This document shows positions 7,370-59,540 of a stretch of 64,000 bases of DNA, in pieces. A program made the position numbers and the translations under genes. Source of the DNA: Yinghuangia seranimata (GTDB taxonomy: Bacteria; Actinomycetota; Actinomycetes; Streptomycetales; Streptomycetaceae); contig NZ_JASAOI010000017.1 of the NCBI RefSeq assembly GCF_029953285.1, positions 124,001 to 188,000 on the forward strand. The letters are read 5' to 3'. Each line of letters starts with the position of its first letter. Positions within the stretch are counted from its first letter, which is position 1. A model generated the notes under the pieces. It was not told the DNA's origin, made no database searches, and was given only the letters and a program-made list of their open reading frames with translations.

Positions 7370-11263
<3,894 letters not shown>

Positions 11264-11398
11264 TGTTTCGTCAATCCCTCTTTCGGGGTTTGGTCCCGGC
11301 GGCGGCGGACGGGGTGATCCGCCGCCCCGGGGGTGTCTTCATCAGGTCTGTGGTCCGGGAGTCCGGGGCCTGGCTCTCACCAGGTCCCGGGCCGGACA

Positions 11399-14884
<3,486 letters not shown>

Positions 14885-27466: not shown

Positions 27467-27474
27467 CTCGTCAG

Positions 27475-27547
27475 AGCCCCAATACGGAATCGAACCGTAG
27501 ACCTTCTCCTTACCATGGAGACGCTCTGCCGACTGAGCTATTGGGGC
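27475..27547 (-). tRNA. tRNA-Thr (GGT anticodon)
   Basis: A 73-nt cloverleaf. Acceptor GCCCCAA pairs with TTGGGGC, the anticodon loop is ATGGTAA with anticodon GGT, and the T-arm is TACGGTTCGATTCCGTA. The MoxR-type operon starts about 95 bases beyond its 5' end. Confidence 0.95.
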
Positions 27548-27641: not shown

Positions 27642-29846
27642 TCAGACGGGGTCTGGCGCGGCCCAGGCGTGCGCGGTCAGGGCCGCGTCGACGGCCCTCG
27701 TATAGGTGGTGGCGGCCAGCCACGCACGGGCCAGCGCGTCGGCGTCTCCCGGCAGCAGCCGGCCGAACACGTCGCGCCCCCGGTCGGCGGACGCGGCGAC
27801 CAGCGCCTCGAGGAGGTCCGCCCCTGTGACCAGGCCGTCTCGGCGCAAACGGGCGGCGTCGCGGGCCATAGGGGTGAGAGGCGCGGCCGCCGGGGAGGCG
27901 GTGGCGGAGACCGGTGCGGCGGCGAGGGCCAGCGCGGCACGGCCGCCCGAGACGGCGCGCTCGACGTGCCGGGACAGCAGATAGGCGGGGGCCTGGTCGG
28001 GGGTGGCGAACGCCGGCGCGGGGGCGGGCTGCGGGGGGCGTGCGCCGGAGTGATCAGGGGACGGGGCGTGCTCCCGGCGGGCCGGCGCGGCCTGCGAAGT
28101 CGGCGAAGTCGGTGTGGGCGCGGTGACGTCGGCGCGTTGCAGACGGTCGAGGCCGAGGTTGACGCGCACGCGGAGGGTGTCGGGGGTGGGGTCGTGCGCC
28201 GTTTCGCCGGATGGGGCGACCGGGGCCGGGCCTGCCGCGAGTGCTCGTACGGCGGGCTGCGCGCCGGGTTCGAGACGGCCGACGATGCGGAGGCGCAGGC
28301 CCGGGCGGGTCGCGAGGAGGCGGAGGTTGTCGCGGTACGGCAGCGCGGGGTGGTCGTCGGCGACCAGGAGATGGACGGTCAGTCCGCCGCACCGGGCCGC
28401 GACGCGGTCGGCACCGGACGCGGACGCCACCGGGCCGAGCAGCTCGACGTCCAGGAAGACCAGGTCGGAGCCTGCCGGGCGGGCGTCCGGCGGAAGGTCG
28501 GCGAGGGTGCGCAGGACGCGGGCGACCTGGTCGGCAGGGGGCTCCGCCCACAGCGCGGCGAGCGGGTCGTCGTGCCAGGCGGCGCCGGACGCGCTCACGG
28601 CACGGACCGAGGCGCCCGCGCCGAGACGTCCGGTCGGCGACTCGGTGGCGCCGGAGACGATGAGGCCCGCGCGGGAGAGCTGGTGGTGGTCCAGAGCGGT
28701 GTCGCCCAGGCGTACGGCCCGCGCGGCGGCACCGGCGATGCGGGCGGCGCCGCCCGGCATCACGTCGGACACGGTGCGCAGGGCGCGACTGCCCGGGGCG
28801 AGCGTGTAGGTGACGACGCCGGCGTGGCCGGTCGCGGTGTTGATCGGCTCGGTGAACACGCCGTAGAGGCGCAGGGAGCCGGCGTGGGTGTAGGGCTGAC
28901 GCGCGGTGCCGATGAGGACGGCGGTCGCGTCGGGGGTGGGCCGGTCCCTTTCCGAGCCGGGTTCCGGGCCTTCGGAGATCCGGGACAACTCGCGAGCGGT
29001 GTCGAGGAGTTCGTGGGTTGCGGCGATGAGGTCGGCGAGCCGGTGGGAGGGGTCGTCGGCGCGGGCGGCGCGGAGCCCGGTGGTCACGGCGACGGCCGCG
29101 GCGGCGGGCCTGTGCAGACCCGCGAGCTTGGCGGCGTGCGCGGCGCGGAGCAGGCCGGCCTGGAGCACGGCGCCGGAGCCGGAGACCCCGGCGTCGAGAA
29201 CGGTGGCGGCGGCGGACCAGAGGGCTTGGGCGGCGGATGAGGCCTGTGTGGTGAGCGCGGCGCCGGCGGATGAGGCCTGTCCGGTGAGCGCGGCGCCCGC
29301 TGCTGAAGCGGGCACGGAGACCGCAGTGTCGGCCGCCGAGGCGGATCCAGGAGCGGCGGTGTGATGATCGCACCGCGAACTCGGGCCCCCACCTTGGGGG
29401 TTTAGCACGGGTGAGGCGAGAGCGACCCCGCACTGTGCACAGGTGCCGTGTGATGATCCGACCGGGGCGGCGGTGGCGTCGTCGGCGGCCGGTGCGGGCG
29501 CCGACGGGTCGGTCGTCTCCGGTTCCGGTGCGGCGGGTTCGTCGTCGACCGACGGCGTCAGGGACGACACGGCCGCGGCACGGTGCACGCACGCCGGGGC
29601 CAACAGGCACGAGCACCGCACGTCTTCGGCGGTGCGCACGAGCGATCCGGGCGCGTGCAGCGTCAGTTCGGCGTCCTCGTCGACGGCGATACGGACCGTG
29701 TCGGCGTCCTGGGTGACGGGTCGGGCGGCGAGCTTGTCGACGGCGGCGTCGAGGCGCTTGCGCAGCCTCGGCGACAGGGCGTCGACGATCTCCGCGACCG
29801 CCTCGGGGCGTACCGCGATCGCACGCAGGTCCACGGTGTCGGTCAA
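27642..29846 (-). CDS. SWIM zinc-finger protein of the MoxR-VWA operon (YehQ-like)
   Basis: A 734-residue protein, the last gene of the operon. The SWIM motif is Cys78-x-Cys80-x5-Cys86-x-His88 (RCSCLLAPACVHRAAA), a zinc-binding fold that mediates protein or nucleic-acid contacts. A Pro/Ala/Asp-rich linker carries a second Cys cluster (Cys136, Cys139, Cys159) homologous to one in the preceding VWA gene, but with Ser at one ligand position. The rest is alpha/beta with Ala-rich linkers and no recognised fold. The start is TTG at 29846, in a TTGA overlap with the VWA stop. The E. coli counterpart by order is YehQ. Function is unknown. Confidence 0.82.
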   Translation of the reverse strand: MTDTVDLRAIAVRPEAVAEIVDALSPRLRKRLDAAVDKLAARPVTQDADTVRIAVDEDAELTLHAPGSLVRTAEDVRCSCLLAPACVHRAAAVSSLTPSVDDEPAAPEPETTDPSAPAPAADDATAAPVGSSHGTCAQCGVALASPVLNPQGGGPSSRCDHHTAAPGSASAADTAVSVPASAAGAALTGQASSAGAALTTQASSAAQALWSAAATVLDAGVSGSGAVLQAGLLRAAHAAKLAGLHRPAAAAVAVTTGLRAARADDPSHRLADLIAATHELLDTARELSRISEGPEPGSERDRPTPDATAVLIGTARQPYTHAGSLRLYGVFTEPINTATGHAGVVTYTLAPGSRALRTVSDVMPGGAARIAGAAARAVRLGDTALDHHQLSRAGLIVSGATESPTGRLGAGASVRAVSASGAAWHDDPLAALWAEPPADQVARVLRTLADLPPDARPAGSDLVFLDVELLGPVASASGADRVAARCGGLTVHLLVADDHPALPYRDNLRLLATRPGLRLRIVGRLEPGAQPAVRALAAGPAPVAPSGETAHDPTPDTLRVRVNLGLDRLQRADVTAPTPTSPTSQAAPARREHAPSPDHSGARPPQPAPAPAFATPDQAPAYLLSRHVERAVSGGRAALALAAAPVSATASPAAAPLTPMARDAARLRRDGLVTGADLLEALVAASADRGRDVFGRLLPGDADALARAWLAATTYTRAVDAALTAHAWAAPDPV
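29359..29475. repeat. Cys-rich cassette copy A with flanking 11-bp direct repeats
   Basis: This segment aligns without gaps to 31107-31223 in the neighbouring gene, at about 75% identity by eye from 29371 on. It has a CCCCCA/TGGGGG hairpin core near 29386-29400. GTGTGATGATC occurs at 29359-29369 and again at 29448-29458, 89 bases apart and in different reading frames. It encodes the second Cys cluster of the SWIM protein. Confidence 0.7.
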
Positions 29847-32800
29847 CGGACTTTCTCCCCTACCCAGCGGGCCAGTTCGGTCGGGCTGAGGGCCGCCACC
29901 GGCATGCCCGCGCCGACGAGTTGCGAGGCGACGGCCGTCGAGTAGCGCGGCTTGCCGCGGTCGTCGAGGCTCGCGCAGCCGAGGACGTGGCAGCCGGAGC
30001 CGACCAGCGTGCGCACCTCCGCGAGCAGTCCGCCGAGCGGCCAGCCCTCCTCGAAGTCGCTGACCACGGCAACGAGGGTGCGCGACGGCACGGTGACGAG
30101 CTCGCGGGCGTACCGCAGGCCCGCGGCGATGTGCGTGCCGCCTCCGACGCGGACGTCCAGGAGCAGGCCCAGCGGGTCGTGGACCTGGTCGGTGAAGTCG
30201 ACGACCTCGGTGGAGAACGCGACGAAGTGCGTGGTCAGCGCGGGCACTCCGGCGAGGATCGAGGCGGTCAGGGCCGACCAGATCGTCGAGGCCTCCATCG
30301 AGCCGGACACGTCGACGACGAGGATGAGCCGCCAGTCGGCGGCCCGGCGGGCCTTCGTACGGAAGACCGGCCGCTCGGGGACGACGGTGACCACGCCGTC
30401 CGGGCCCATGGGGCGCGCGGTGGCGAGGTTGGCGCGGATGGTGCGCGGAAGGTCGAGGCCTCCCCCGGGGCGGCGGCTCGGGCGCGGGACGGACAGCCCG
30501 GAGAGCGCCGGCCGCATGCGGGTGGCGAGCTCGCGGGTCAGCTCGGCGACGATGCGGTCGACGAGCGGGCGCAGCGCGGCGATCCGCGACTCGGGCAGGC
30601 CACCCGCGTGTTCGAGGACGGCCCGCAGCAGGTCGACGGACGGCCGGGCGGACCCGGGGTCGAGCTCGGAAACGGCGTCACGGCGCCCGGCGGCCACGGC
30701 GGCCGCGAGGACCTCCTCGCGGACCCCGGGCCCGAACAGCGCCGCGAGGTCCTCCGACCAGTCACGGGCGGACGGATAAGCAGGTTCCCGCCCGGCCCCC
30801 GCCCCGGGAGCGCCGCCGCCGAGATCCCCACGCGACCCTTCGCCGCGCCCGGCCCCGTAGAGCTCGTCCAGCGCGGCCCCGAGCCGCGCGACCCGCGCCC
30901 CGGACCGGTCGACCCGCCGGCCGAGGACCAGCCGCCAACGAGCCTCGGGAGCGAGTGTGAGGGGGGCCGACGAGGTGGGTGCGGGCTGCGCAGACGAGGA
31001 GGGCGTGTCCGCCGCGGGAGGCTCGCCCGACGCGGGGGGCTCGCCCGACGCAGCGGTGGAGGGCTGAGCAGGTGCAGGTACGGCGGCCTTCGAGGCGCCC
31101 GACGCGGTCTGATCGTCACACCGCGAACACAGGCCCCCAGCTTGGGGGTCTACCGCAGACGGCACGAGAGCGGCCCCGCAGCGTCCACAGGACCGGGGTG
31201 ATGATCCGACCGGAACGGCGGCGGGAGCGGACAGCTCTGGTTTCGGCGAGGTCGTCTCGTGCGGGTCGGGGTGGGGTGTCAGGGCGGGGGCGGACGAGCC
31301 TGGATTCGGGGAGCCGGGTTCGGGCTGCGGCGGCGTCGTGGTCGGCAGTAGGCCGCGTTCGCGCAGCGCCGTGCGGCCGGCCAGGTCGGCTGCGGCCCAG
31401 GAGGCGAGGGTTTCCGGGGACGTGTCCGTCGTGGTGTCGACCGTGGACTCCAGGCGGTCCTCGATCACCGCCAGGAGCCTTTCGCGGGCCGCCGGGCTGA
31501 GGGTGTCGAAGCCGCCGCGCAGGGCCGGGAGGCGGGTGAGGAAGTCCTCGTCGGGGAGCTCCGCGACGCGGTCGAGCAGGGGCTCCAGGGCGGCTCCGCC
31601 GGCGCTCAGGAGTGGGCCGGCGGCGGTCAGGAGGCCGGTCATGCGGCGGACGAGGTCGGCGCGGCGGTCGGGCGTGGTGGCCTCGTCGAGCCACGAGGCG
31701 ACGCGTTCGCCGAACCGTTCGGCCGGCTGGTGGCCGAGCAGGACCCGTACGGCGCCCGCCGCAGCGGCCATCATCGGGGCTGCGTCGGTGTCCAGGCGGG
31801 TGAGGGCGTCGGCGAGCCTGAGACCGCCGAACGTGTCGGCTCGGCGGGCGAGTTCGACGACGGCGCGGGCGTCGGCGGGGTCCTCGGAGCCGCTGAGCCC
31901 GTCGAGCCGTCGGACGGCGGCCGCGGTGAGGTCGGCGCTGACGTCGGCGGTCTCGTCGGGGGCGTCCGGCAGGCCGGGGATGTGCCCGTTCGCCCACCGG
32001 TCCAGCAGCGCGAGACCGGACAGGAGTTCGGGCAGTGTCGCGAGTCCCGGCACGAACGCGTCGACCTCGGCGAGGCGTTCGGCGGCGAGCGCCTCCAGGC
32101 CGCACTGGGCGGCCTCCTCCAGCCCCGCGAGCACCTGGGCCGCGGTCGGCCCGCCGTCCTCGTGTTCGCGGCGCCTACGCTCGCGCAGCACGCCTTCCGC
32201 GGCCTGTTCGGGGGTGACGCCGCGGATGCCGGCGACGTCCAGCATCGCGGCGGTCGACGGCGACCAGCGGACCCGCCAGCGGGTGGTCAGCGCGTCGGCG
32301 CCGCCGGTGCCGACCACGTCGACGGGTTCCGCGTACGGGATCCGGCACACGTCGAGCCGCCGCAGGAGCAGTTCGCGGTGCCGGTCGAGGTCGGCGCGCA
32401 GCGGGTCGAGGCGCAGGTCGCGCTCGTCGTCGCCGGCCGCCGTACGCGAGCCGCCACGCCCGCCGGCCGGGCCGCCGCCGGCCGGGCGGCGGCGTGCGGT
32501 GCCGGGCTCGGGTGCGGGCTCGTGCGGGCCCGGCAGCCCGAGTTCGGCGAGTTCGGCCTCGACGGCGGGTCCGAGGCCGCTGCGCGGTGTGCCGGGCGCG
32601 CGGCGTCCGGCGCGCGTGCCGACCAGCACGCGTTCGAGGGCGCGCGCGACGGCGCGGCCCCGGCCGAGGGGTTCGCCGTGGGTGAGCGCGGTCTGCGCGG
32701 CCTCGGCGAACTCGCCGCGTCCGGCGGCGGGGAGGCCGCGCAGGGCGGCCAGGTCGGTCGCGATGCGCACGACCTCGCGGGCGTCGGCGGGTCCCGACGG

Positions 32801-33910
32801 GTGGCCCTGGGCGCGCAGTTCCGCGCACACGCGGGTGGCGGTGCGGGTGAGGGCGTCGTACAGCCGTGCGGGGTCGCCGCCGGCCTCGAACACCTGCTGC
32901 TGCCACTCGGGGTCGCGGATGCCCGCCGGGTAGCCCGAGCGCTCGTCGAGGAGCGCGTGGGTGTACGGGACGAGGGAGGTGACGACGGGTTCGGCGTCCT
33001 CGGCGAAGTCGCCTTCCACGTCGGCCTGTTCGGCAACCGTTCCGAGCAGGAGCGCCGGGGCGTGGAAGGCGCCGACGACCGCGGTGGCGCGGGCTCCGTC
33101 GGCGGTGGCCTCGCGTACGGCCCGCCGCATCCACGCTTCGCGGCGCAGGTCGACCGGGTCGACGCCGGGGCCGGCGGCGGCGTCGCGGCGGAGCGCCCAG
33201 CCGACCATGAGCGCGGCCCGGCGTACCGCCTCGGGCGTCGAACCCGGGGCGGACGCCTCGACGAGGCGGTCCCACAGGTCGTCGCCGGGGCGCCCGGAGA
33301 GGCGGCGGCTGAGCGCGGCGTGCAGCGTGGGCGCGGCGGCCGCGCCGGCGGGCGGCTCGGACGGTTCCCAGCCGCGGTGTGCGAGGGGCAGGTCGCACGC
33401 GACGACGGGGACTCCGGCGCGGGCCGCCCAGCGTACGGCGGCCAGTTCCGGCGAGAAGTCCGCGAACGGGTAGAACCCGAGCCCGTGCGGCCCGGACCCG
33501 GCGAGCGCGACCGGCGCCTCGGTCTCGGGGTGCGCCAGCCACGGCAGCCAGTCCTGGAGGTCGGCCGGGAGCTCGACGAGCACGACGTCGGGCTTCGCGG
33601 CGTCGAGCAGCGCGGGCATGGCCGCCGCGAGTGACGGCGCGTGGTGCCGGACGCCGACCAGGTGCGGCCGGTCGGCGGCGGCGAGCCGGGCCGCGGCCGC
33701 ATCGGGGGCGTCGTCCGCGGCGAGCCGGTCCGCGGCGGCATCGGAGCCATTGGCCGCAGCGAAAGCGCCGGCCGCGACGGACGCACCGACCGCGTCGAAG
33801 GCACCGGCCTCGTCGAAAGCGCCGGTCGCGTCGGGGGTACCGACAGCCGCCCCGCGAGAGGCCGGGACCGGCCCGGCCTCTCGCGCGAACTCGTCGAAAT
33901 CACTCGGCAC
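29843..33910 (-). CDS. DUF5682-VWA fusion protein (YehM-YehP fusion)
   Basis: A 1355-residue protein from a GTG at 33910, four bases after the moxR stop. The first 80 residues are Ala/Asp low complexity. DUF5682 follows (HLVGVRHHAPSLAAAMPALL, DVVLVELPADLQDW, VPVVACDLPLAHRGWEP, VVGAFHAPALLLG), reaching to about residue 820. A Pro/Ser/Glu linker contains a four-Cys zinc-ribbon-like element (CGRC...CSRC, about 903-928). The C-terminal VWA domain (about 1190-1355) has an intact MIDAS start DVSGSM (about 1199) and the Thr/Asp sites (GGGTHIAAGL, VVSDFEEGWP). E. coli has these halves as separate proteins. VWA proteins act as adaptors for MoxR ATPases; the DUF5682 activity is unknown. Confidence 0.85.
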   Translation of the reverse strand: MPSDFDEFAREAGPVPASRGAAVGTPDATGAFDEAGAFDAVGASVAAGAFAAANGSDAAADRLAADDAPDAAAARLAAADRPHLVGVRHHAPSLAAAMPALLDAAKPDVVLVELPADLQDWLPWLAHPETEAPVALAGSGPHGLGFYPFADFSPELAAVRWAARAGVPVVACDLPLAHRGWEPSEPPAGAAAAPTLHAALSRRLSGRPGDDLWDRLVEASAPGSTPEAVRRAALMVGWALRRDAAAGPGVDPVDLRREAWMRRAVREATADGARATAVVGAFHAPALLLGTVAEQADVEGDFAEDAEPVVTSLVPYTHALLDERSGYPAGIRDPEWQQQVFEAGGDPARLYDALTRTATRVCAELRAQGHPSGPADAREVVRIATDLAALRGLPAAGRGEFAEAAQTALTHGEPLGRGRAVARALERVLVGTRAGRRAPGTPRSGLGPAVEAELAELGLPGPHEPAPEPGTARRRPAGGGPAGGRGGSRTAAGDDERDLRLDPLRADLDRHRELLLRRLDVCRIPYAEPVDVVGTGGADALTTRWRVRWSPSTAAMLDVAGIRGVTPEQAAEGVLRERRRREHEDGGPTAAQVLAGLEEAAQCGLEALAAERLAEVDAFVPGLATLPELLSGLALLDRWANGHIPGLPDAPDETADVSADLTAAAVRRLDGLSGSEDPADARAVVELARRADTFGGLRLADALTRLDTDAAPMMAAAAGAVRVLLGHQPAERFGERVASWLDEATTPDRRADLVRRMTGLLTAAGPLLSAGGAALEPLLDRVAELPDEDFLTRLPALRGGFDTLSPAARERLLAVIEDRLESTVDTTTDTSPETLASWAAADLAGRTALRERGLLPTTTPPQPEPGSPNPGSSAPALTPHPDPHETTSPKPELSAPAAVPVGSSPRSCGRCGAALVPSAVDPQAGGLCSRCDDQTASGASKAAVPAPAQPSTAASGEPPASGEPPAADTPSSSAQPAPTSSAPLTLAPEARWRLVLGRRVDRSGARVARLGAALDELYGAGRGEGSRGDLGGGAPGAGAGREPAYPSARDWSEDLAALFGPGVREEVLAAAVAAGRRDAVSELDPGSARPSVDLLRAVLEHAGGLPESRIAALRPLVDRIVAELTRELATRMRPALSGLSVPRPSRRPGGGLDLPRTIRANLATARPMGPDGVVTVVPERPVFRTKARRAADWRLILVVDVSGSMEASTIWSALTASILAGVPALTTHFVAFSTEVVDFTDQVHDPLGLLLDVRVGGGTHIAAGLRYARELVTVPSRTLVAVVSDFEEGWPLGGLLAEVRTLVGSGCHVLGCASLDDRGKPRYSTAVASQLVGAGMPVAALSPTELARWVGEKVR
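31111..31223. repeat. Cys-rich cassette copy B
   Basis: The homologue of the 29359-29475 cassette, in the same reading frame, encoding PVGSSPRSCGRCGAALVPSA then PQAGGLCSRCDDQT. Here all four Cys are kept. The hairpin core is CCCCCAGCTTGGGGG (31134-31148). The right flank GTGATGATCCGACCG is near-identical to copy A; the left flank is degenerate. Confidence 0.7.
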
Positions 33911-33914
33911 TTGG

Positions 33915-35105
33915 TCAGCCTTCCAGCACGTGCCGCAGGTCCCACAGCGTCCGCCACGTCGCCGACCCCTGCTCGGCTCGGCGGCGCACGGCGGCGTCCC
34001 AGTACCCCAGCAGCCGTGCCGCGTCGGTCGGGTCGTCCTTGCGCACCACGCCGAGCAGGTGGCCCGGCAGGAGCCCCAGCACGTCGCGGTCGCCCGGGAA
34101 GTACGCCGACGCCAGCCCCAGCGCGGACGCGACGGCGACCGCCTCGGCGGTGCTCATCACGGTGGACGGGCGTTCGACCTCCCAGCCCTCGGCGCTGCGC
34201 CCGGTGCGCAGGTCGCGGAACGCCGTGACCAGCGCTTCGAGCACCGCGTCGTCGACCGAGAACGCCGCGCCCGCGCGTTCGACCGAGCCGCGGGCCTGCC
34301 GCCGCACGAGGTCGGTCTCGGCGTCGAGGTCGGCGATCGGGCCGATGGTCTCGAAGTTGAACCGCCGCTTGAGCGCCGCGGACATCTCCGAGACGCCGCG
34401 GTCGCGCAGGTTGGCGGTGGCGATCAGGGTGAAGCCGGGCGCGGCGTGCGCCTGGGCGTCGTCGGTGCCGGCGAGTTCCGGTACGGCGATCCGGCGTTCG
34501 GAGAGCAGCGACACCAGGGCGTCCTGCACCTCCGGGAGGCAGCGGGTGACCTCCTCGACGCGGGCGACCGCGCCGCGCGCCATGGCGGTCAGCACCGGCG
34601 ACGGGACGAGCGCCGCCCGGCTGGGGCCCTGCGCGAGGAGCATCGCGTAGTTCCAGCCGTACTTGAGCTGGTCCTCGGTGGTGCCGGCGGTGCCCTGCAC
34701 GGTGAGCGCGCTGGTGCCGCACACGGCGGCGGCCAGCAGCTCGGAGAGCATGGACTTGGCGGTGCCGGGTTCGCCGACGAGGAGCAGCCCGCGTTCGCCG
34801 GCGAGGGTGACGACGCAGCGTTCGACGAGCGCGCGCTCCCCCACGAACTTCTGGCTGATCGTCATGCTCGCGGAGCCGTCGGGGAGTTTGAGCTGTTCAC
34901 CGGCGCTGCCGAGGATGAACGTGACGACCGCGCGGGGCGTCAGCCGCCAGGCCGGGGGCCGCGCCCCGGTGTCGTACGCGGCGAGGAACTCCAGTTCGGC
35001 GGCGTACGCGTCCTCGGGCGGCTGGACCTGGCGGGCCGCCTGCGGGCGGTCCGCGCCGTCGGGCTCCGGCGTGCCGGGCCCAGGCGTGATGGTGGCGGTG
35101 CTCAT
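33915..35105 (-). CDS. MoxR-family AAA+ ATPase (YehL-like)
   Basis: A 396-residue AAA+ ATPase. Its ATG overlaps the stop of the giant gene by four bases (ATGA). Walker A is GEPGTAKS at 111-118. The Walker B position reads VARVEEVTRCLPEVQDAL, with Glu-Glu where most MoxR proteins have Asp-Glu. Sensor 1 is LIATANLRDRG and the arginine-finger region is SAALKRRFNFE. The C-terminal lid is present. MoxR proteins remodel partner proteins together with VWA-domain proteins, and the next gene supplies one. Much longer upstream readings in the frame run over the giant gene and are rejected. Confidence 0.9.
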   Translation of the reverse strand: MSTATITPGPGTPEPDGADRPQAARQVQPPEDAYAAELEFLAAYDTGARPPAWRLTPRAVVTFILGSAGEQLKLPDGSASMTISQKFVGERALVERCVVTLAGERGLLLVGEPGTAKSMLSELLAAAVCGTSALTVQGTAGTTEDQLKYGWNYAMLLAQGPSRAALVPSPVLTAMARGAVARVEEVTRCLPEVQDALVSLLSERRIAVPELAGTDDAQAHAAPGFTLIATANLRDRGVSEMSAALKRRFNFETIGPIADLDAETDLVRRQARGSVERAGAAFSVDDAVLEALVTAFRDLRTGRSAEGWEVERPSTVMSTAEAVAVASALGLASAYFPGDRDVLGLLPGHLLGVVRKDDPTDAARLLGYWDAAVRRRAEQGSATWRTLWDLRHVLEG

Positions 35106-38100
35106 CGGCGGCGTCCCCTCCGGGTGGTGCGGGTCTCGAGCTGTTCGAACGCGGGCGCGTCGCCCTCCTGGACACGCTGCCATGCGGCCCGGAACAGGTC
35201 GGGAACGGGCTGCCGCGGGGTGATCGCCCGGTTGCCGTCGACCTCGTAGAACGCGTCCTTCCACGTCTCCAGCGGCAGCGCGCGCTTGAGCTCGTGCCAG
35301 CCGCCGGGCAGGAACAGGGTCCGGGAGGCGCGGGACCGCTTCGCGGAGACCACCAGGTCGGTCGCCTCCAGGGCGGCCTTGGCGGCCTTGAAGCGGGCGG
35401 GCTTCCAGCCGTTCCAGCGGACGACGTTGCGGTCGGTCGGGTCGGGCAGGGCGAGCAGCTGGAGGTAGAGCGCGGCGGCGTCGGCGGACAGGTCGTGCGT
35501 CTTCGCGACCTCGTCGACGAGGTCGGGCACCGACCAGGCCGGGTCCTGGGCGTACCCGACGGGACCGTCGGCGCCTGCCGCGGCCAGTCCGTCGAGTTCG
35601 GTGCCGAGGAGGGTGCGCACGGCGGCCGCGGCCCCGGTCGGCGCACCGCGCAGGGCGATGACGTGGGCGAGGTCCGGGTCGTCGGGCCCGGTCAGGTTGC
35701 CGGTGCGGACCCACACCTGCTCGGCCTCGCCGTGCCACGGGGTCAGCACGATGACGTCGTTGACGTGCACCATGCCGTCCTCGGCGGCGCCGCCGGTGGC
35801 CGGCAGGCCGGCGGCCTCGCGCAGTGCGACGGAGGTGTAGGCGCCGCGTTCGGTCCACTCCAGGTCGAGGTCGAGGAGCAGCCCCGGGTCGGCGAGGCGG
35901 GCGCGCACGGCGGCCAGCAGGCGGGGCAGCGCGGCGCGCAGCGGGTCGCCGTAGGGCAGCCGGTAGGCGAGCCAGCGCACGGCGCGGGCGTAGGTGCCCA
36001 GCTGGTGCGGCGACAGCATCGCGTCGCTGTCGTCCGCGACGAGGCGCTGGTGCTCGTCGAGTCGCTGGGTGGTGGTGCGGGACAGCTCCGCGCTGGTGTC
36101 CGGGTTGAGGACGCTGTCGATGAACGTCTCGCCGAACGACGCCGCGACGGCGTCGGCGGCGATGTCGTCGGGCAGCCGCAGGAGGTGCCCGAAGTGGGTG
36201 TTCCAGGCGGCGGCGCCCGCGTCGACGTCGGGTCCGGTGTTCGCCAGGTCCGCCGGGTCGGCGGGCAGGAGTGCCCCGAGGACGCCGCTGAGGGCCTTCG
36301 TGTCGAGGCCGCGCAGGCGGTCCCGTGCGGCGGTCGCCTCGGCGCTCTTGAGGCCGAGGAGGGTGCGCTGGTCGGTGTCGAGGTCGATGCGGCCGTAGCG
36401 GGCGGCGTCGGGGAGGCCGGCGAAGAGCAGCGCGGCTTCGGTGCGGCGGGCGGTGGTCGCGGCGGCGAACCGGTCGACGGAGTCCGGCCACCACGCGGCC
36501 GCTTCGGCGGCGCGGATGGCGGTGACGTAGTCGCCGACGCGCGCGGCCCGGTCGTCGCTGTCGAGGTAGTCGACCGGCCAGGCGTCGTGCGACCTGAAGT
36601 CGGCGACGGCGTCGAACCGGCCGCTCGGGTCGTAGTCCAGCGCCGTCCAGTGCTGGCGGCGGTCGCTCCCCCAGCCCGCCGGTCCGATGATCACCACGAC
36701 GCGGCCGCCGCGGCGCATGACCTGTCCGACGCGGGTGGCGTCGCGGTGGTCGGCGCACAGCACGACGCGGCGCAGCAGCCCGGGGCGGCGGAACACGTCG
36801 GCGGACAGCTCCTCGACGAACAGCAGGAGCGCTTCGCGGTTCGCGGGCGCGGTGAGCGGGGACGCGGCGCGGTAGAGCAGCGCGCCGAGGCGGCCGATGG
36901 CGCCGATCCAGGTGCCGGAGCCGTCGGCGAGCCGGACCTGGGTGGTCGTCCACGCGTCGGCGGCTTCGCCGTCGGCAGGTCCGCCGTCGGCGGCTTCGCC
37001 GTCGGTCGCGGTCTCCGCGTCCGCTCCGGGCGCCGCGAGGAGCGCCGCGACCTGTCGGATCTGGTTGAGGACGTTCCAGCGGGGGGCTCCGCCGTAGTAG
37101 CCGTAGCCGCCCTGCTCCCCGATCCCGCGCAGGCCCTCGTGGACGAGGCTGTCGGTGCCGTGCTCGGGCCGGTACTCGTCCTGGTCGTCGCCGGTGCGCT
37201 TATTCGCGACGACCGTGCCGTAGCCGTCGAGGCGGCGGACGAGCGAGGCGGCGTCGCGGGTGATGCCGGCGACGCCCGCGCGCAGGCCGGGGTGGGTGAT
37301 GCCGGGCAGGAGTGCGTCGACCTCGGCGAGCGGCACCGGGTCGGGGCGGGCCGCCGGTTCGCCGGTGGCCGCGGCGGCCTCCTGCGCAGCCTCGACGGCC
37401 GCGTCGCGCGCCCGCTTGGCCGCGGCGAGCAGGCCGCGCGCGTCGTCGTCGGTGACCGCGCGGAGCACCGCCGAGCCCGCCTCGTCGCGGGGGCGCAGCG
37501 CGTGCCAGAACGCGGTGTCCGGCACCAGGCGGGTGCCGGCCGCGTGGACGCCGCCCCGGCGCCACGCGTCGGCGCTGCCGAGCATGACCTCGCCGTCGGC
37601 CCACCGAAGGCTGCCGTCGTCGGCGAACACGGTCGGGCACGCGCCGCCGGGCAGGCGCAGCGCGCCCATGGGCAGCCGCTGCGGGCGGCCGTCCCAGCGG
37701 CGTGCGCCGACCGGGAGGGTGACGGCGGTGCCGTCGACGCTTCCGGCGGTGACGGTGTCGTTGTCGTCGACCCGCACCCAGTGTCCGAGCAGGGTGCCGT
37801 CGGTGCCGAACGGGCTGTTCTCCAGGCCCGGTTGCAGCGGCATGAGGCGGCAGGCCTCGTGGACGAGGCGTCCGCCGTCGGCGACCGCGGCGGCGAACGG
37901 CGCGGGCAGCGACGCACGGCCGCGCGTTCCTGTCGCGGGGTCGTACTCGTGCCAGGTGAGGACGTCGCGCCAGTGCAGCACCCAGTAGTTCGCGCCGTCG
38001 CCGATCACGTGCTCGCGGCCCGGCAGAGCGGTGTCGCCGGCGTGCAGGACACGGCCGCCGCTGACCCGGCCGCCGCCGGGGAACGGGAGCGACATGACGC

Positions 38101-40198
38101 CGCCGGACTCGCCGCCCCACCGGCCGGGGGTGTCGCCGCCGACGGTGAAGACCTCGGCGGGCCGCGACGACCAGTAGCCCTTCTGCTCCTCGTCCCACCA
38201 CATCACCAGCAGGTCGCCGTCGACGTAGCGGAACTTCGGCCTGACCCAGGAGTCGAGGCCGCTGGGCAGCCGCAGGTCGTGCTCGAGCAGCACGCCGTCC
38301 GGGCCGATGACGACGGCCTTGCCGCCGCTCGCCAGGACGAGCGCCGGCCACGCCTCGGAGATCAGCAGCTCCGACTTGTCGGTGGACGCGTCGTCGTGCA
38401 GGCCGGGCGTCGGGGTGCCGGTGGTCAGGCCGAGGCGGTCGAACGCCTCGTCGAGGGCGGGCCAGCCGAGTTCGTCGAGCAGGCCGACGCGCAGCGTGCG
38501 GGCCAGCAGCGGGGCCATGTCGAACGCCTGGACGCGGGCCACCACGTCCGGGTTGACGTCGGCGCACACCGCGTTGAACGGGTGCAGTGCGTCCAGCGCG
38601 GCGCGGGCGCCGGGCAGCGCGGACTGCGTCTCCAGGTCCGCGGCCCGGTCGGCGAGCCACGCGTGCATGACGCCGCGCAGCACCGGGTGGGCGGCCGCCT
38701 TGACGAGGTGGTTGCCGTTGCCCTGGCTGCCGAGCGCGCCGACGGCCTTGCGCAGCACCGGTTCGTAGCGGGTGTCGGCAGCCACGGCGGCCAGGTCGCG
38801 GCGGCCGGGCTCCTCGTCGTCGTACCAGTCCCCCAGGGCGAACTGCGCGCTGTTGTTCGGGTCGGCGACCGGGATGCCCGCGGCGAGGCACACGTCGAGC
38901 AGGTCGGCGTCGATCGGGTGCCACGACTTGTCCCCGAGCGAGACGGGGGCGCCGTCGGCGCGCAGCGCCTCGGCCATCCGCGCCGCGAGGCCGAGGGCGG
39001 CCGCGTCGCGCTTGCGGCCGCGCCAGCTGCTGCGGCGCATGTGCTTGGCCCAGCGGGTCAGCCAGGCGGCGGACTGGCCGGACTCGCGTGCGCCCGGGGT
39101 GGTCAGCAGCGCCTCGGCGCCGGTGTCGGCGAGCAGTGCCAGCCAGAAGGCGTCGGCCTCGGCCGGGGCGCCGGTGTTCGGCGTCGGGAAGATCTCCAGC
39201 AGGCGGGCGCGGGCCGCGGGTTCGTCGGCGCACAGCGCGACGAGGGCGGGGCGGAACGCCTTCCAGAAGGTCAGAGGGGCGCGGGTCACGGCGGGCGTCG
39301 GCAGCAGGTCGGCGAGCAGCGCGCGTTCCTCGGCCGCGACGACGGCCGCGGACTCGGCGGCGGACTGCCGCTTGCCGTCCTTGGCGGCCGCGGTGCCGAC
39401 CGCCTTGATCATGGAGCGGGCGTCCTCGGCGAGGCCGGCGTAGGGCGGCATGCCGGCCGCGCAGCGTTCGACGCACAGCTGGCGGAACTGCGCCCACGCC
39501 TCGGCCGCTTCGAGGCGGCGGGACAGGTCGCGGGCGTACTCCTTGAGTGCCTTCGCGGTCAGCGCGCCGGCGAACGCGAACTCGAGGAAGACGGCGCGCA
39601 GCCGCTGTTCCTCGACGGGCAGGTTGTGCACGCGCTCGGCCTCGCGGGCCTTGCCGAAGAAGGTGGCGGCGTACGTGGTGTTCTCGTGCCCGAGGAACAC
39701 GCGCGCGGCCTGCTCGTAGAACGTCGGCAGGAAGTGCGGGACGGCGCGCCCCAGGCGGGTGCCCAGCACGTCGAAGCCGTCCTTGGCGGTGCCGGGCTTG
39801 CTGCGGGCCTGGCGGCCGAGGCGTTCGATGTCGCGGACCAGGGCGAGCGCGTGGTGGCCGTTGGCGGGGTCGTTGACCAGTGCCCAGGCCGGGAAGCCGA
39901 GCGTCTCGCGGCGGACCAGGCCGACGGTGGGGGCGGTGTCCTTGCCGGCCGCGTCGGCGGCGGGGACGTCGTCGCCGGTGTCGCGGGTCAGGCCGAGGAA
40001 GTCGAGTGCGAGGTCCTCGGCTTCGCCGAGGGTGCCCGGCACCAGCCGCACTATCGGCCGGTCGCCGAGCGCGGGGTGCGTGTACGTGCGGGCGGTCAGC
40101 GTGTCGACGTCGTCGCCGGTCGCGGCGCCGAGCGGCAGGACGGCTCCGGCGTCGAGCAGTGCGGCGGCCTCGGCCTGGGTGTTCGGGTGGGCGCTCAC
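35102..40198 (-). CDS. Giant uncharacterised protein of the MoxR-VWA operon (1698 aa)
   Basis: Read from the GTG at 40198, which overlaps the DUF4132 stop by four bases (GTGA), to 35102. It is soluble: no signal peptide or membrane spans are visible. The N-terminal 700 residues are mainly helical with many Ala/Glu/Arg segments (for example VHNLPVEEQRLRAVFLEFAF), the central part contains beta-rich Trp/Gly/Asp stretches (YVDGDLLVMWWDEEQKGYWS, GANYWVLHWRDVLTWHEYDP) suggestive of a propeller-like repeat, and the C-terminal part is helical, ending LETRTTRRGRRR. I recognise no catalytic motif; VVIIGPAGWGSDRR is not a P-loop. By position it may be the scaffold or sensor between DUF4132 and MoxR. 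Confidence 0.8.
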   Translation of the reverse strand: MSAHPNTQAEAAALLDAGAVLPLGAATGDDVDTLTARTYTHPALGDRPIVRLVPGTLGEAEDLALDFLGLTRDTGDDVPAADAAGKDTAPTVGLVRRETLGFPAWALVNDPANGHHALALVRDIERLGRQARSKPGTAKDGFDVLGTRLGRAVPHFLPTFYEQAARVFLGHENTTYAATFFGKAREAERVHNLPVEEQRLRAVFLEFAFAGALTAKALKEYARDLSRRLEAAEAWAQFRQLCVERCAAGMPPYAGLAEDARSMIKAVGTAAAKDGKRQSAAESAAVVAAEERALLADLLPTPAVTRAPLTFWKAFRPALVALCADEPAARARLLEIFPTPNTGAPAEADAFWLALLADTGAEALLTTPGARESGQSAAWLTRWAKHMRRSSWRGRKRDAAALGLAARMAEALRADGAPVSLGDKSWHPIDADLLDVCLAAGIPVADPNNSAQFALGDWYDDEEPGRRDLAAVAADTRYEPVLRKAVGALGSQGNGNHLVKAAAHPVLRGVMHAWLADRAADLETQSALPGARAALDALHPFNAVCADVNPDVVARVQAFDMAPLLARTLRVGLLDELGWPALDEAFDRLGLTTGTPTPGLHDDASTDKSELLISEAWPALVLASGGKAVVIGPDGVLLEHDLRLPSGLDSWVRPKFRYVDGDLLVMWWDEEQKGYWSSRPAEVFTVGGDTPGRWGGESGGVMSLPFPGGGRVSGGRVLHAGDTALPGREHVIGDGANYWVLHWRDVLTWHEYDPATGTRGRASLPAPFAAAVADGGRLVHEACRLMPLQPGLENSPFGTDGTLLGHWVRVDDNDTVTAGSVDGTAVTLPVGARRWDGRPQRLPMGALRLPGGACPTVFADDGSLRWADGEVMLGSADAWRRGGVHAAGTRLVPDTAFWHALRPRDEAGSAVLRAVTDDDARGLLAAAKRARDAAVEAAQEAAAATGEPAARPDPVPLAEVDALLPGITHPGLRAGVAGITRDAASLVRRLDGYGTVVANKRTGDDQDEYRPEHGTDSLVHEGLRGIGEQGGYGYYGGAPRWNVLNQIRQVAALLAAPGADAETATDGEAADGGPADGEAADAWTTTQVRLADGSGTWIGAIGRLGALLYRAASPLTAPANREALLLFVEELSADVFRRPGLLRRVVLCADHRDATRVGQVMRRGGRVVVIIGPAGWGSDRRQHWTALDYDPSGRFDAVADFRSHDAWPVDYLDSDDRAARVGDYVTAIRAAEAAAWWPDSVDRFAAATTARRTEAALLFAGLPDAARYGRIDLDTDQRTLLGLKSAEATAARDRLRGLDTKALSGVLGALLPADPADLANTGPDVDAGAAAWNTHFGHLLRLPDDIAADAVAASFGETFIDSVLNPDTSAELSRTTTQRLDEHQRLVADDSDAMLSPHQLGTYARAVRWLAYRLPYGDPLRAALPRLLAAVRARLADPGLLLDLDLEWTERGAYTSVALREAAGLPATGGAAEDGMVHVNDVIVLTPWHGEAEQVWVRTGNLTGPDDPDLAHVIALRGAPTGAAAAVRTLLGTELDGLAAAGADGPVGYAQDPAWSVPDLVDEVAKTHDLSADAAALYLQLLALPDPTDRNVVRWNGWKPARFKAAKAALEATDLVVSAKRSRASRTLFLPGGWHELKRALPLETWKDAFYEVDGNRAITPRQPVPDLFRAAWQRVQEGDAPAFEQLETRTTRRGRRR

Positions 40199-41049
40199 GC
40201 GGCGTCCTCCTGGTTCTCGGTCGAGCGTCCGGCGTACAGCGCGGCGGCCATGCGCATGCCCTCGGACCACGCGACGGGTCCGACCTCGGGCGCGCTCAGC
40301 ACGCGGCCTTCGGCGCTCGTCCAGGACAGCGCGCCGGTCTCGGTGCTCTCGTAGGGGTCGAAGTCGCCGAGCCACACACGGGCCTCGACGGTGTGCCCGT
40401 CCTCGGTGACGGGACAGACGGCCTGGCCGCCGCGCACCTGGTAGCCGAGCGACGTGGCTCGGCCGAAGAGGAAGCGCAGCTGGTCGAACTTGCCGCCTGC
40501 GTAGTCGTCGACGTGGGTCGTGTCGGCGGCGAGGTCCGCGGGGCGGAGCCACACCTCGCGGTAGAGCTGCCCGGCGCGCTGCTCGACGCCCAGTTCGGCG
40601 GCGAACTCGCGCAGGTCCTCGAGGTCTTCGAGGAGCACCGGGTGCGGGATGCGGATCCGGTCCGGGGTCACGCGGACGGTGTCGCCGTCGAGGTCGACGA
40701 GGCCGATGCCGCGCTCGGGGTCGGCGTCCCGCAGGAACCCGACCGCGGCGCCGTCGTCCGCGCTGACCACGAGGTCGCGCAGCACGCCCTGCCACGCCGG
40801 GTCCGGCCACACGCGGGCGACGACCGCGGTCGGGACGGCCAGCGAGCGCACCATCCACCGCTCGACGTCGGCGAGGCAGGTCCGTTCGTGGCGTTCCAGC
40901 CACTCGGTGAGCTGCCGCAGTCCGACGACCGCGGGGTCGTCGGCGAGCTTGGAGGGGACGCTTTTCAGCCGCCGTCCCGCCGCGTTGCGGCACACCACCG
41001 TGCCGTCTTCCAGGGCGACTTCGTAGTCGCCCGCCCGCACCCACGCCAT
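40195..41049 (-). CDS. DUF4132 domain protein (YehI/MolR-like)
   Basis: A 284-residue protein, first gene of the operon. It has DUF4132 features: YEVALEDGTVVCRNAAGRRL, KSVPSKLADDPAVVGLRQL, ERWMVRSLAVPTAVVARVWP, WQGVLRDLVV and the IRIPHPVLLEDLEDL...QLYREVWLRP block. E. coli YehI (MolR) is a much longer DUF4132 protein; here the domain stands alone and the large remainder may correspond to the adjacent giant gene. The Met at 41049 opens MAWVRAGDYEV. The activity of DUF4132 is not established. Confidence 0.83.
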   Translation of the reverse strand: MAWVRAGDYEVALEDGTVVCRNAAGRRLKSVPSKLADDPAVVGLRQLTEWLERHERTCLADVERWMVRSLAVPTAVVARVWPDPAWQGVLRDLVVSADDGAAVGFLRDADPERGIGLVDLDGDTVRVTPDRIRIPHPVLLEDLEDLREFAAELGVEQRAGQLYREVWLRPADLAADTTHVDDYAGGKFDQLRFLFGRATSLGYQVRGGQAVCPVTEDGHTVEARVWLGDFDPYESTETGALSWTSAEGRVLSAPEVGPVAWSEGMRMAAALYAGRSTENQEDAA

Positions 41050-41371
41050 GGAATGAAGTCCTCCCGCCGAGCCCGCTGGACCCCAGGCCGCGCATAGGTG
41101 CGCCGGTCGCCTGTGGGTCCTGACCGCGGCCGCTCACGGCCGAGGGCCGCCGGGGCAAGTGGATGGTGGCACCGAAGCGGCCACGACCGCGATCAGGATG
41201 GCGGGAACGTTAGCGGTATCGGCTGACAACGGACGGCGAACCTCCGACGAACGCCCCGCGTCCTGACGGAATGGGGCGTAGACGCGGCCTTCGGGCGGGC
41301 GGCACGCTGGAACCGCCGCACCCGCGACCGCGCGGGCGCGGTCGGATGCATCGGGCGCTGGGGAGCTCACC
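41050..41371. promoter_or_regulatory. Divergent promoter region between DUF4132 operon and small membrane gene
   Basis: This 322-base gap must hold the promoter of the five-gene operon (minus) and that of the 87-aa gene (plus). GC-rich short inverted repeats lie near 41087-41140. A moderately AT-richer patch at about 41190-41230 is the best place for promoters. No gene is seen. Confidence 0.45.
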
Positions 41372-42655: not shown

Positions 42656-43015
42656 TCAGACGTTCAGCACCTTGCCCTTGGCGGTGGCGCGCTCCTGGCC
42701 GTCGACGGCGACGCAGATCCCGTACACCCGGGTCGCGGCGGTCCACCCGTTGGCCCGGCCCCGGTTGTTGCTGATCTGGACCCGGCCCCGGGTGCGGTCC
42801 AAGGCGGAGACCAGGTGGAGGTAGACGGTTCCCGCGACGCGCGCCAGGACGATGTCCCCGATCTCCAGCTTCGCGGGGTCGACCGGTGCGACGGAAACCA
42901 GTTGGCGGCTCATGATCAGCGGCGTCATCGACGAGCCGGTCGGACGGAACTCGACGGTGGCCCCGTCGGCGACGCGCGAGGCCATGGAATCCAGCAAGCC
43001 CATGCTCCGCAGCAT
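42656..43015 (-). CDS. S24/S26 (LexA/signal peptidase-like) fold protein lacking the usual Lys
   Basis: A 119-residue soluble protein. The Ser motif GSSMTPLI (Ser29) and GDIVLARVAGTVYLHLVSAL match the LexA/signal-peptidase beta fold. The general-base Lys expected after that strand is not present (YLHLV), so proteolysis is doubtful. There is no N-terminal membrane anchor or DNA-binding domain. Alternative start ATG at 43003. It may be a regulatory or binding derivative of the fold. Confidence 0.65.
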   Translation of the reverse strand: MLRSMGLLDSMASRVADGATVEFRPTGSSMTPLIMSRQLVSVAPVDPAKLEIGDIVLARVAGTVYLHLVSALDRTRGRVQISNNRGRANGWTAATRVYGICVAVDGQERATAKGKVLNV

Positions 43016-43114: not shown

Positions 43115-44233
43115 TTACGCCGGGTCGGAGATCCGCACGTCGTACGCCTCGGGGTCGGCCTCCGCAGCCGCGAAGCGGAGCAACTCCCGGCCCTCCTCCT
43201 CCGCCTCGGCGCGCCGCGCCGCGTCCAGCGGACGGAACGGGTCGATCTGCAGGACGGCCGTGCCGCCCTTGCGGACGATCTTCCACATGCCCTCGAAGAA
43301 CCCGTCGACCAGCAGCGTTCCGGTCGTCCCGCCGTTGCCCGGCGGCAGGGGCACGCGGCGCTTGCCGACGATGACCCGGGAGCGGTCGGCGTGGGACAGC
43401 AGCAGGTTGTCGTACTCCGGCAGGAACCGCAGCGGCGCCGGCGTCTCGGCGGGTGGCCGTGGGGCGTCCGGGAGGTCGAACAGCTCGGCGCCGTCCGGGC
43501 CGCGGAACCGGACGAGCCGGGGGCCGAGCCGGTCGAAGACCTCGCGCAGACGGGTCAGCCCTGACCACATCTGCGCGTCCTTGACCGAGGCGGGCCCGAA
43601 CGCGCCCAGGTAGCGCAGGACGAACGCGTCGAGCGACGGCGCCGCATCGAACACGCCGCCCAGCCACGTCTCCGCCGGCGTCCACCGCGGCGGGCCGCTC
43701 TGGCCCCACAGCCCGCGAGGCGGCACCTGCACGTTCGGGCGCAGGTGGGTGGCCGCGTAGGCGAGCGCCATCGGGTCGGCGTCCGGCCAGCGCTCGGACA
43801 GCCGTTCGGCGAGCTCGGCGCGGGTGAGCGGCGTGTCGGTGATCAGGGTCCGGCCGTACGCGGACACCGCCTTGTAGTCGGTCCCGGCCAGCGCCTTGCC
43901 GAACACCGAGATCGCGAAGGACCGTTCGAACATCGGGCTGAGCAACGGAACCATCACCCGCGCGTCCGCCGCCGTGACGAGGTGGACGGTCACGCGCATC
44001 AACGGCATCCGCAACGCGTCGCGTGCGGCGAGCAGACCGGCGAGGTCGTCGGTGGCGAAGTCGGCGAGCCGCGTCCACAGCCCGACGTAGGGGGCGTTGG
44101 GCGCCTGCCCCTGCATGCCGACGAGGTGCTGGATCGCCTCGGCGGCACTGCGCCGGTCACGACGCAGCAGCAACTGCCGGTCGAGGGTCGCACGGCTGAG
44201 CGCACGCACGTCCAACTGCGGCGCGCCGGTCAT
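43115..44233 (-). CDS. Winged-helix (HTH_42) protein, AlkZ/YcaQ-like putative DNA glycosylase
   Basis: A 372-residue protein of the winged-helix DNA-binding (HTH_42) family. The N-terminal block AIQHLVGMQGQAPNAPYVGLW holds a Gln-x-Gln at the place of the catalytic QxQ motif of AlkZ-type glycosylases, but with Gly between the Gln residues. Other family blocks are TRAELAERL, LRPNVQVPPRGLWGQSG, YLGAFGPASVKDAQMWSGL, LPEYDNLLLSHADRSRVI and the VDGFFEGMWKI strand. The start is the ATG at 44233. AlkZ proteins unhook DNA crosslinks or give self-resistance; YcaQ is a general repair enzyme. No biosynthetic cluster is visible next to it. The activity is an inference. Confidence 0.78.
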   Translation of the reverse strand: MTGAPQLDVRALSRATLDRQLLLRRDRRSAAEAIQHLVGMQGQAPNAPYVGLWTRLADFATDDLAGLLAARDALRMPLMRVTVHLVTAADARVMVPLLSPMFERSFAISVFGKALAGTDYKAVSAYGRTLITDTPLTRAELAERLSERWPDADPMALAYAATHLRPNVQVPPRGLWGQSGPPRWTPAETWLGGVFDAAPSLDAFVLRYLGAFGPASVKDAQMWSGLTRLREVFDRLGPRLVRFRGPDGAELFDLPDAPRPPAETPAPLRFLPEYDNLLLSHADRSRVIVGKRRVPLPPGNGGTTGTLLVDGFFEGMWKIVRKGGTAVLQIDPFRPLDAARRAEAEEEGRELLRFAAAEADPEAYDVRISDPA

Positions 44234-56696: not shown

Positions 56697-57266
56697 GGGC
56701 GGATGCTCCCTGCTTCCTCGGCGTGTGGCCCACCCCCGACGACCCGCCGGGACGCGGCCGGGGACAGCCGCACTCAGCCCCTCGACCACCCGTACGCCGT
56801 AGCCGAGTTGCGTTCTCCACGGCCATGCGGTCCCACGCCCGCCCCACCCCAAAACAACAACCGCCCCCCTCCAACCCAACTGGCGCAACCCCAAAATCTG
56901 TGCTGCCCCCACCCCCACCCACCCACCCAGCCCGCCCCCACCACACCCCCGACCCCCCGACGGCCCCGCACAGCCCTACCAGTTGCCGACCATGGAGGAC
57001 GCGCACGCCAATGCTGAGACCCACGTCGGCAACGCGGTCGGGGACAAAGACAACGTCGAGAGCGACTGTGCCCCGGTCGGCTACCGCCCGATCGGCGCCG
57101 TCAATCGGACCACTGGCCTGGCCTGACTCCTGGACAGACGCAGTGAGCACCGCGCAGGCGCTTCTCGTCCACGGATAGTCCGCACGCGCCGGACAGGGCG
57201 CGAGCACCGCCGAGACAGAGTCAGATAGTCCCGGCATTACGGGCACTGGGTCGAGCCGACGAACGA
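56697..57266. other. Gene-free region upstream of the dehydrogenase
   Basis: About 570 bases without a convincing gene. A C-rich, G-poor plus-strand tract occupies about 56836-56960. It must include the promoter of the minus-strand dehydrogenase gene and the end of the chromosomal side of the integrated element. Confidence 0.5.
56906..56949 (-). other. G-quadruplex-like tract
   Basis: On the minus strand, runs of 3-5 G are separated by single bases: GGGTGGGTGGGTGGGGGTGG and beyond, with further GGGGG runs on each side. More than four runs of three or more G with loops of 1-4 nt meet the usual quadruplex pattern. It lies about 210 bases upstream of the sugar dehydrogenase start and on its coding strand. 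Confidence 0.75.
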
Positions 57267-57307
57267 AAACAGCCCCTGACCGCGAACATGCTGGTCAGAG
57301 GCTGTTT
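57267..57307 (-). terminator. Terminator of the tRNA-Tyr gene
   Basis: AAACAGCC... pairs with ...GGCTGTTT over 15 positions with one mismatch and an 11-nt loop, followed on the minus strand by TTTTCG. It lies 9 bases beyond the 3' end of the tRNA-Tyr fragment, as in an intact tRNA locus. Confidence 0.8.
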
Positions 57308-57315
57308 CTTAAGGG

Positions 57316-57366
57316 TGGCGGGTGCAGGGTTCGAACCTGCGTAGGCATCAGCCGACAGATTTACAG
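57316..57366 (-). other. 3' half of tRNA-Tyr: attachment-site copy (attL-like)
   Basis: The minus strand reads CTGTAAATC (anticodon GTA context), a variable-arm-like CGGCTGATGCC, the T-arm GCAGGTTCGAACCTGC and acceptor 3' ACCCGCCA. The 5' part does not form an acceptor complement (expected GGCGGGT) and the anticodon stem is degenerate (GCGTA against TCTGT). The cut lies at the anticodon loop, the usual crossover of integrases that enter tRNA genes. Confidence 0.75.
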
Positions 57367-57528
57367 TACGCGGCCTGGTTCGGCCATCGGGGCACCTGAC
57401 CTGCGCAAATGAACAGCAGGCCACGCACGGTGAGCGCACGTCCGCACGGTGTCCGCATCCGTGGAGACCCCCCGGAGACCTCTGAGGCGGGCGCCATCTG
57501 GACAGCAACGATCCTGGCAAGCGCCCGC

Positions 57529-57695
57529 TCAGGCCCCACCCCCCTTCACCTGAACAGCCGCCGAAACATGCAGGGCAACCTGAACAACCTCGCACTTGTT
57601 CAGGCCCCACCCCCCTTCACCTGAACAGCCGCCGAAACATGCAGGGCAACCTGAACAACCTCGCACTTGTTCAGGCCCCACCCCCCTTCACCTGA
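57529..57695. repeat. 71-bp tandem repeats near the attachment site
   Basis: Copies start at 57529, 57600 and 57671 (the last partial), almost identical. Each full unit holds CCTGAACAA(8 nt)TTGTTCAGG, a perfect 9-bp inverted repeat (57579-57604 and 57650-57675), plus CACCTGAACAG direct motifs. Position next to the tRNA junction suggests integrase/excisionase arm sites; a replication or transfer role is also possible. Confidence 0.75.
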
Positions 57696-57728
57696 AGACG
57701 ATCTGTAGAGACTCTGTACACTCCGCGC

Positions 57729-59510: not shown

Positions 59511-59540
59511 AACCGCGGGACCACAGGTACACGGGGAGAG

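Follow-up and report, generated by a model that had tools for sequence, protein, structure and literature searches.

A candidate DNA-damage-inducible MoxR-VWA operon with a giant protein in Yinghuangia seranimata and its relatives

The yeh genes of Escherichia coli are conserved and uncharacterised, and an actinobacterial variant of the set adds a giant protein that has no family. We analysed such a variant in a 64,000-nucleotide stretch of the genome of Yinghuangia seranimata (contig NZ_JASAOI010000017.1, positions 124,001 to 188,000), hereafter the window, where five genes on the minus strand span 27642-41049. In order these are D (DUF4132), G (the giant), M (MoxR), V (DUF5682-VWA) and S (SWIM). 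There is no published function for this five-gene operon, and the question it raises is what switches it on and what its products then do. An earlier note, made from the sequence alone, called the trigger unknown; this is no longer fair, as a conserved RecA-NDp/PafBC-type promoter precedes the operon and predicts induction. We propose, with a probability of roughly 0.55, that the operon encodes an AAA+/vWA remodelling machine which is induced by DNA damage and includes a scaffold for recruitment, and that it is a diverged paralogue of the yeh set.

The promoter element, TTGTCAGCC-GATACCGC-TAACGT, occupies 41207..41229 of the minus strand, 180 nt ahead of the start codon of D. It appeared as enriched k-mers: upstream of D, CGTTGTCAGTG and related words were counted far above shuffles, and the motif was recognised only afterwards. 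Together with a TA-rich block these words give TTGTCRGTG-N8-TANNNT, i.e. the RecA-NDp motif, the consensus of which reportedly comes from Gamulin 2004. Scanning for this motif within 400 bp of gene D in 93 operons, we found it with at most one mismatch in 78 and with at most two in 90; shuffles gave 0 and 0.65 of 93, respectively. The operon sequences are related and hence not independent, and the 820 neighbouring genes of the same loci were used as a matched control, giving 0.1% and 1.2%. Upstream of the recA gene of the family the motif is found in all 23 readable genomes, 16 times perfectly, so the identity of the motif does not hinge on that published consensus. The promoter element is well supported.

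Megaplasmid copies of the operon keep the motif with 0-1 mismatch. Loci that hold D and G only keep it as well (L085 with 0 mismatches, L100 and L146 with 1 each), and it is found before some stand-alone giants too (L127, 1 mismatch). In most Streptomyces the distance from motif to start codon is 59-61 nt, versus 180 nt in the window. Many Streptomyces loci (e.g. L030 and L043) have a conserved stretch, CCCGTCACTTGATCA, after the -10 block, possibly a second operator, and the 10-mer CACTTGATCA is present upstream of D in 44/89.

The RecA-NDp motif is the same as the PafBC motif (PMC6789036, PMC8223512). PafBC is triggered by single-stranded DNA (PMC11804915), and in Streptomyces coelicolor a RecA-NDp gene is inducible by ultraviolet light (PMC5087735). 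The genome of Y. seranimata encodes pafA, adjacent pafB and pafC, tatA and tatC, assignments made from WYL matches, from gene adjacency and by recognising the proteins. The operon and the PafBC regulon have the same promoter element in the same geometry, and the family's recA carries it too; the operon differs in that we found no report in the literature naming a MoxR-VWA operon as a member. The promoter suggests that the operon is induced by DNA damage.

The earlier note described five coupled genes on one strand, and their coordinates and strand proved exact, with all five present. Gene D (40195-41049) overlaps G (35102-40198) by 4 bp, G overlaps M (33915-35105) by 4 bp, a 4-base gap separates M from V (29843-33910), and V overlaps S (27642-29846) by 4 bp. 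In bases the junctions are -4, -4, +4 and -4; the D-G and V-S overlaps recur in relatives, and the description as one coupled unit is right. The product of D, 284 amino acids (aa) long, is the DUF4132 domain alone (PF13569, 2.6e-29), unlike the full YehI-like protein. M encodes a MoxR AAA+ ATPase of 396 aa (AAA_5, 4.5e-39). Its P-loop reads GEPGTAKS and, like sensor 1 and an EE Walker B, is retained in 71/71 relatives. V encodes a DUF5682-VWA fusion of 1355 aa (PF18934, 9e-203; PF05762, VWA_CoxE, 1.8e-60). Its CoxE-type VWA domain (29861..30529, minus strand) makes up the C-terminal end, residues 1128-1350, and by Pfam and a motif check has a full metal ion-dependent adhesion site (MIDAS; DVSGS, GGGT, SDF). 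The complete MIDAS is retained in 63/63 relatives, and the two domains are fused in 61 of the 63. S encodes a fast-evolving protein of 734 aa with a SWIM match under the Pfam cut-off (PF04434, E 0.34); the CxC..CxH signature is present as CSCLLAPACVH and is retained in 61/61 relatives. The DUF4132, DUF5682 and MoxR assignments hold in the profile check, and Pfam matches and motifs uphold the yeh-type composition with a MoxR-VWA core. A 55-aa CxxCG...CxxC segment is found in both V and S (31049-31210 and 29298-29462; 47% identical). As a conserved zinc ribbon it was ruled out, being absent from all relatives including two sister species.

Scanning 84,980 species genomes with the giant, we found at least 501 relatives and took the best 80 as loci, nearly all of them from Streptomyces and Kitasatospora. 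The order D-G-M-V-S is intact in 58 of the 63 loci with enough sequence, the 4-bp overlap of D and G is found in 79/80 loci and that of V and S in 58/62. The complete set also occurs on Streptomyces megaplasmids and in another actinobacterial family (L145). The operon is not a chance arrangement, because the same order and overlaps recur, including in this second family. Three loci (L085, L100 and L146) have D and G alone, and another locus of the Y. seranimata genome, L007, has MoxR, DUF5682 and VWA without D and G. Since each of these holds one part, D-G and M-V-S can be regarded as two modules.

How does the operon relate to the yeh genes? The earlier note stated that E. coli carries such genes together, and yehF, yehI, yehK, yehL, yehM, yehP and yehQ are indeed found together. 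The yehL-yehQ genes are near-core in E. coli, present at 80% coverage or more in 5162/5426 genomes. The E. coli and window loci agree in the gene order MoxR, DUF5682, VWA, SWIM and in the DUF4132 gene that precedes it, as well as in the P-loop GEPGTAKS and the DUF5682 and MIDAS motifs; for the E. coli locus a LexA link (molR) is reported. The window operon differs by its added 1698-aa giant, its fused DUF5682-VWA and its DUF4132 domain alone. The 9.8 Mb genome of Y. seranimata has four MoxR-DUF5682-VWA modules: the window, L007, L008 and L009. L008 consists of tandem DUF4132 genes followed by MoxR, DUF5682, VWA and SWIM; full-length DUF4132 proteins (about 1000-1200 aa) are found there and not in the window operon. 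The window set is 46%, 39% and 30% identical to YehL, YehP and YehM, whereas L008 is 63%, 57% and 42% identical, 12-18 identity points closer in every protein compared. From these identities the window operon is a diverged paralogue of the yeh set, and the true orthologue is L008 in the same genome. The designation "yeh type" is thus right for gene content and order and wrong for orthology. The L009 module (6732-14157) is more divergent; it has a split SWIM-like pair (177- and 473-aa genes), VWA, MoxR and a DUF5682-like gene, and 76 nt upstream there is a match to the damage motif with 2 mismatches. The giant is single copy in the genome. We considered it as a split-off piece of a full-length DUF4132 protein and rejected this, as the giant profile matches neither full-length DUF4132 nor any yeh protein.

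The operon adjoins at its 3' end a tRNA-Thr (27474..27547, minus strand) and a tRNA-Met, and the earlier note thought this compatible with an acquired island. In agreement with such an origin, the GC content of the operon (0.75-0.79) is slightly higher than that of its surroundings. The other two genomes of the genus carry the operon at the same site with the same tRNAs and flanking genes (3/3 genomes, one site), and L151, from an Embleya-like genus, shares the downstream flank. We therefore consider recent acquisition at the tRNA-Thr very improbable. The shared flanks of the sister genomes and L151 indicate that the operon was inherited at one site in the genus; elsewhere, in Streptomyces, it occupies many sites, with widely differing flanks that fall into more than 20 groups.

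For a survey of the family and phylum we used the C-terminal 159 aa of the giant as query. This domain was found in 44/101 family genomes (42/98 good ones), covering 9/17 genera, and in 7/296 genomes of a phylum sample. Presence is patchy across the Streptomycetaceae. The earlier note had taken universal presence in the genus as a sign of a housekeeping role; the operon is in all of the genomes of the genus that were compared, only three in number, and its patchiness in the family (42/98) does not fit such a role. Compared with the window, the other copies in the genus are most alike in M (92-94% identity), then in D (81%) and V (67-72%), and least alike in G (58-59%) and S (56-60%).

The giant (1698 aa) gave no match in Pfam, NCBIfam or PADLOC, and its description here relies on the 80 homologous loci and on structure models. 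It has two conserved blocks. Residues 101-250 (39449..39898, minus strand) are strongly conserved, at about 80% in operon copies and about 30% in stand-alone homologues, and the second block comprises residues 1551-1650. The stand-alone homologues keep the second block (0.53-0.63) and not the first (0.26-0.32), on which basis block 101-250 may dock the operon partners and block 1551-1650 may hold the core activity.

An AlphaFold2 model of residues 1-960 (predicted local distance difference test, pLDDT, 89.9) starts with a small alpha/beta part, followed by a solenoid and then a beta-rich propeller-like domain. Residues 104-590 (38429..39889, minus strand) are predicted as an alpha-solenoid, with a designed helical repeat as match (Z 8.3 over 108-292). 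Residues 610-880 (37559..38371, minus strand) are predicted to be beta-propeller-like, resembling the Nup133 propeller (Z 6.5, root-mean-square deviation 5.9, 252 residues). In the model of residues 930-1698 (pLDDT 88.8) the conserved C-terminal block resembles MarR-type winged helices; residues 1555-1679 (35162..35536, minus strand), the most conserved part in all homologues, match 1ku9 with Z 5.9 and a root-mean-square deviation of 3.1 over 76 residues. It should be noted that a match with Z below 8 may reflect a common arrangement only. The rest of the 930-1698 half gave no listed fold in a brief comparison against a set without cellular predicted structures, so the missing name does not point to a new fold. 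Apart from Mcm7, all that a sequence search of the PDB with giant and DUF5682 profiles returned were repeats or barrels designed de novo.

Stand-alone giants of about 1540 aa and C-terminal halves of about 660 aa also exist. The latter (L114-L119, L122, L125 and L129, with several extra copies in G005) have unrelated neighbours. In L121 (5395-10023) part of a stand-alone homologue resembles the N-terminal end of the DUF4132 protein (38% over 87 aa), which would fit an earlier fusion of D and G.

Among the closest described systems are the MoxR-vWA ternary conflict systems of Kaur et al. 2020 (PMC7159879). Like the operon, they combine a MoxR and vWA core with another large component for which a propeller is predicted. 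The P-loop GXXXTAKS of their subsystems 3 and 4 is found here as GEPGTAKS. In subsystem 4 the beta-propeller is fused C-terminal to the vWA, whereas here the VWA ends the protein and the predicted propeller is in the giant. The text of that study does not mention DUF4132, DUF5682, SWIM or yeh (PMC7159879).

A role in biological conflict, one of those that the earlier note mentioned for MoxR-VWA pairs, would have the giant and SWIM proteins sense a phage or plasmid, MoxR-VWA set a threshold and the complex harm the infected cell or the invader, with damage control reporting the invasion. The patchy presence in the family, the megaplasmid copies and the variable Streptomyces flanks are what such a system would show, and the giant and SWIM proteins are the fastest evolving within the genus, with identities far below that of MoxR. 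The GXXXTAKS P-loop has been noted for the FtsH and beta-propeller conflict subsystems (PMC7159879), and in G002 (L028 7459-9891; G002:C1, about 822 kb) an 810-aa protein like giant residues 424-983 adjoins a VMAP conflict locus. That locus encodes EAD2-trypsin, EAD2-VMAP, a MoxR-like AAA and NB-ARC-TPR proteins. The VMAP neighbour was seen once, however, and in the operon Pfam found no VMAP, iSTAND, EAD, known peptidase, nuclease or TIR domain. Nor did the five proteins have a Pfam match at E up to 1 to VMAP, iSTAND or the FtsH third component, and there was no EAD or effector. Further, the operon has no PADLOC match, viral contigs contain no relative of the giant, inheritance in the genus is at one site, and the near-core yehL-yehQ of E. 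coli is not defence-like. The phage search did return one unannotated contig with a MoxR match. We judge a conflict role, phage defence included, a real but less likely alternative; it has gained no specific support.

Of the known ATPase and vWA cochaperone pairs, RavA-ViaA and CoxD-CoxE follow the same logic and have a CoxE-type vWA; they differ in their partners and lack a giant or DUF5682. The operon could by analogy be a housekeeping maturation chaperone that assembles a molybdenum or other cofactor enzyme, molybdate being what the old name MolR points to. The CoxE-type VWA and the near-core yeh set agree with this, and several MoxR-vWA pairs of known work are assembly factors (PMC7159879). 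We nevertheless hold it to be improbable, more so than a conflict role: no conserved enzyme client adjoins the operon, the flanks vary, presence in the family is patchy, a damage promoter would be unexpected, and a Deinococcus study saw molybdate genes unchanged (PMC8533742).

The N-terminal DUF5682 part of V (32654..33673, minus strand) carries GVRHH, E, RE..M and GAFH motifs, tentatively TIKI/TraB-like by motif comparison. The residues H, H, E, R, E, M and H are invariant in all members compared, including YehM, and the motif order is that of TIKI/TraB enzymes, which have two His and two Glu plus an Arg (PMC6254334). As a yardstick we built a TraB profile from YbaP and plasmid homologues, TraB (PF01963) being absent from 21 related genomes. 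With hhalign, a local match of 33 columns between DUF5682 and TraB relatives was weak and no more than suggestive (P 7e-4), with shuffled, reversed and unrelated controls at 0.3-1; global alignment to the yardstick was unsuccessful. We found no mention of DUF5682 in the literature searched.

Based on these observations, we suggest the following for the proposed damage-inducible remodelling machine. Single-stranded DNA arising from damage would lead PafBC to guide the housekeeping RNA polymerase towards D's RecA-NDp promoter, and the whole coupled unit would then be made. The MoxR ATPase and the VWA would remodel a protein complex, the VWA binding a client peptide via its MIDAS. The giant would act as recruiting scaffold, its solenoid, propeller-like domain and winged helix bringing the client or nucleic acid and its operon-specific block (residues 101-250) docking to the partners. 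DUF4132 and SWIM would be adaptors, and DUF5682, possibly a hydrolase of the TIKI/TraB-like kind, could cleave the client once it is delivered.

Several points weigh against this proposal. The window site departs twice from the strict consensus, both times at positions 8-9, and in all three Yinghuangia genomes the site ranks with the weaker ones. In the 10 kb surrounding the start of the canonical yeh orthologue of this genome there is no site, even with two mismatches allowed. A motif search in Streptomyces venezuelae reported that the PafBC motif of Mycobacterium smegmatis is not conserved there (PMC9380542). Damage control is common for prophage, toxin and conflict genes too, and does not on its own imply a role in repair. 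The propeller and winged helix are predicted from models with modest Z, and DUF5682 may be a hydrolase on the strength of motif order and a weak profile match.

Two further genes lie near the promoter end of the operon, one for an AlkZ-like DNA glycosylase (43115-44233) and one for a weak S24-peptidase-like protein (42656-43015); within 400 bp of either we found no damage motif. At 57000-60000 of the window the GC content drops to about 0.60, versus 0.70-0.76 nearby, with few strong coding calls.

Damage control of DUF4132-type genes has been reported elsewhere too. A LexA box with one mismatch lies just upstream of E. coli yehF, which we take to be part of the former molR. The E. coli molR gene is listed as LexA-regulated (PMC4576408, PMC11039860), and depleting DdrO in Deinococcus strongly raises drA0165-drA0166 (DUF4132) and DR2173 (WGR) (PMC8533742). 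By this analogy, three unrelated damage regulators appear to touch DUF4132 or WGR genes, the Deinococcus parallel covering the DUF4132 and WGR genes named. We speculate, at somewhat less than even odds, that DUF4132-MoxR-vWA operons are a widespread DNA-damage-inducible AAA+ machine put independently under LexA, DdrO and PafBC. The giant would then be a scaffold of a new kind that recruits nucleic acid and through which the actinobacterial version has a specific damage- or invader-linked client.

What is new here is the RecA-NDp promoter before the operon; being of the recA type, it suggests what switches the operon on. The finding also bears on whether Streptomyces has a PafBC response, a matter left open by the S. 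venezuelae study (PMC9380542).

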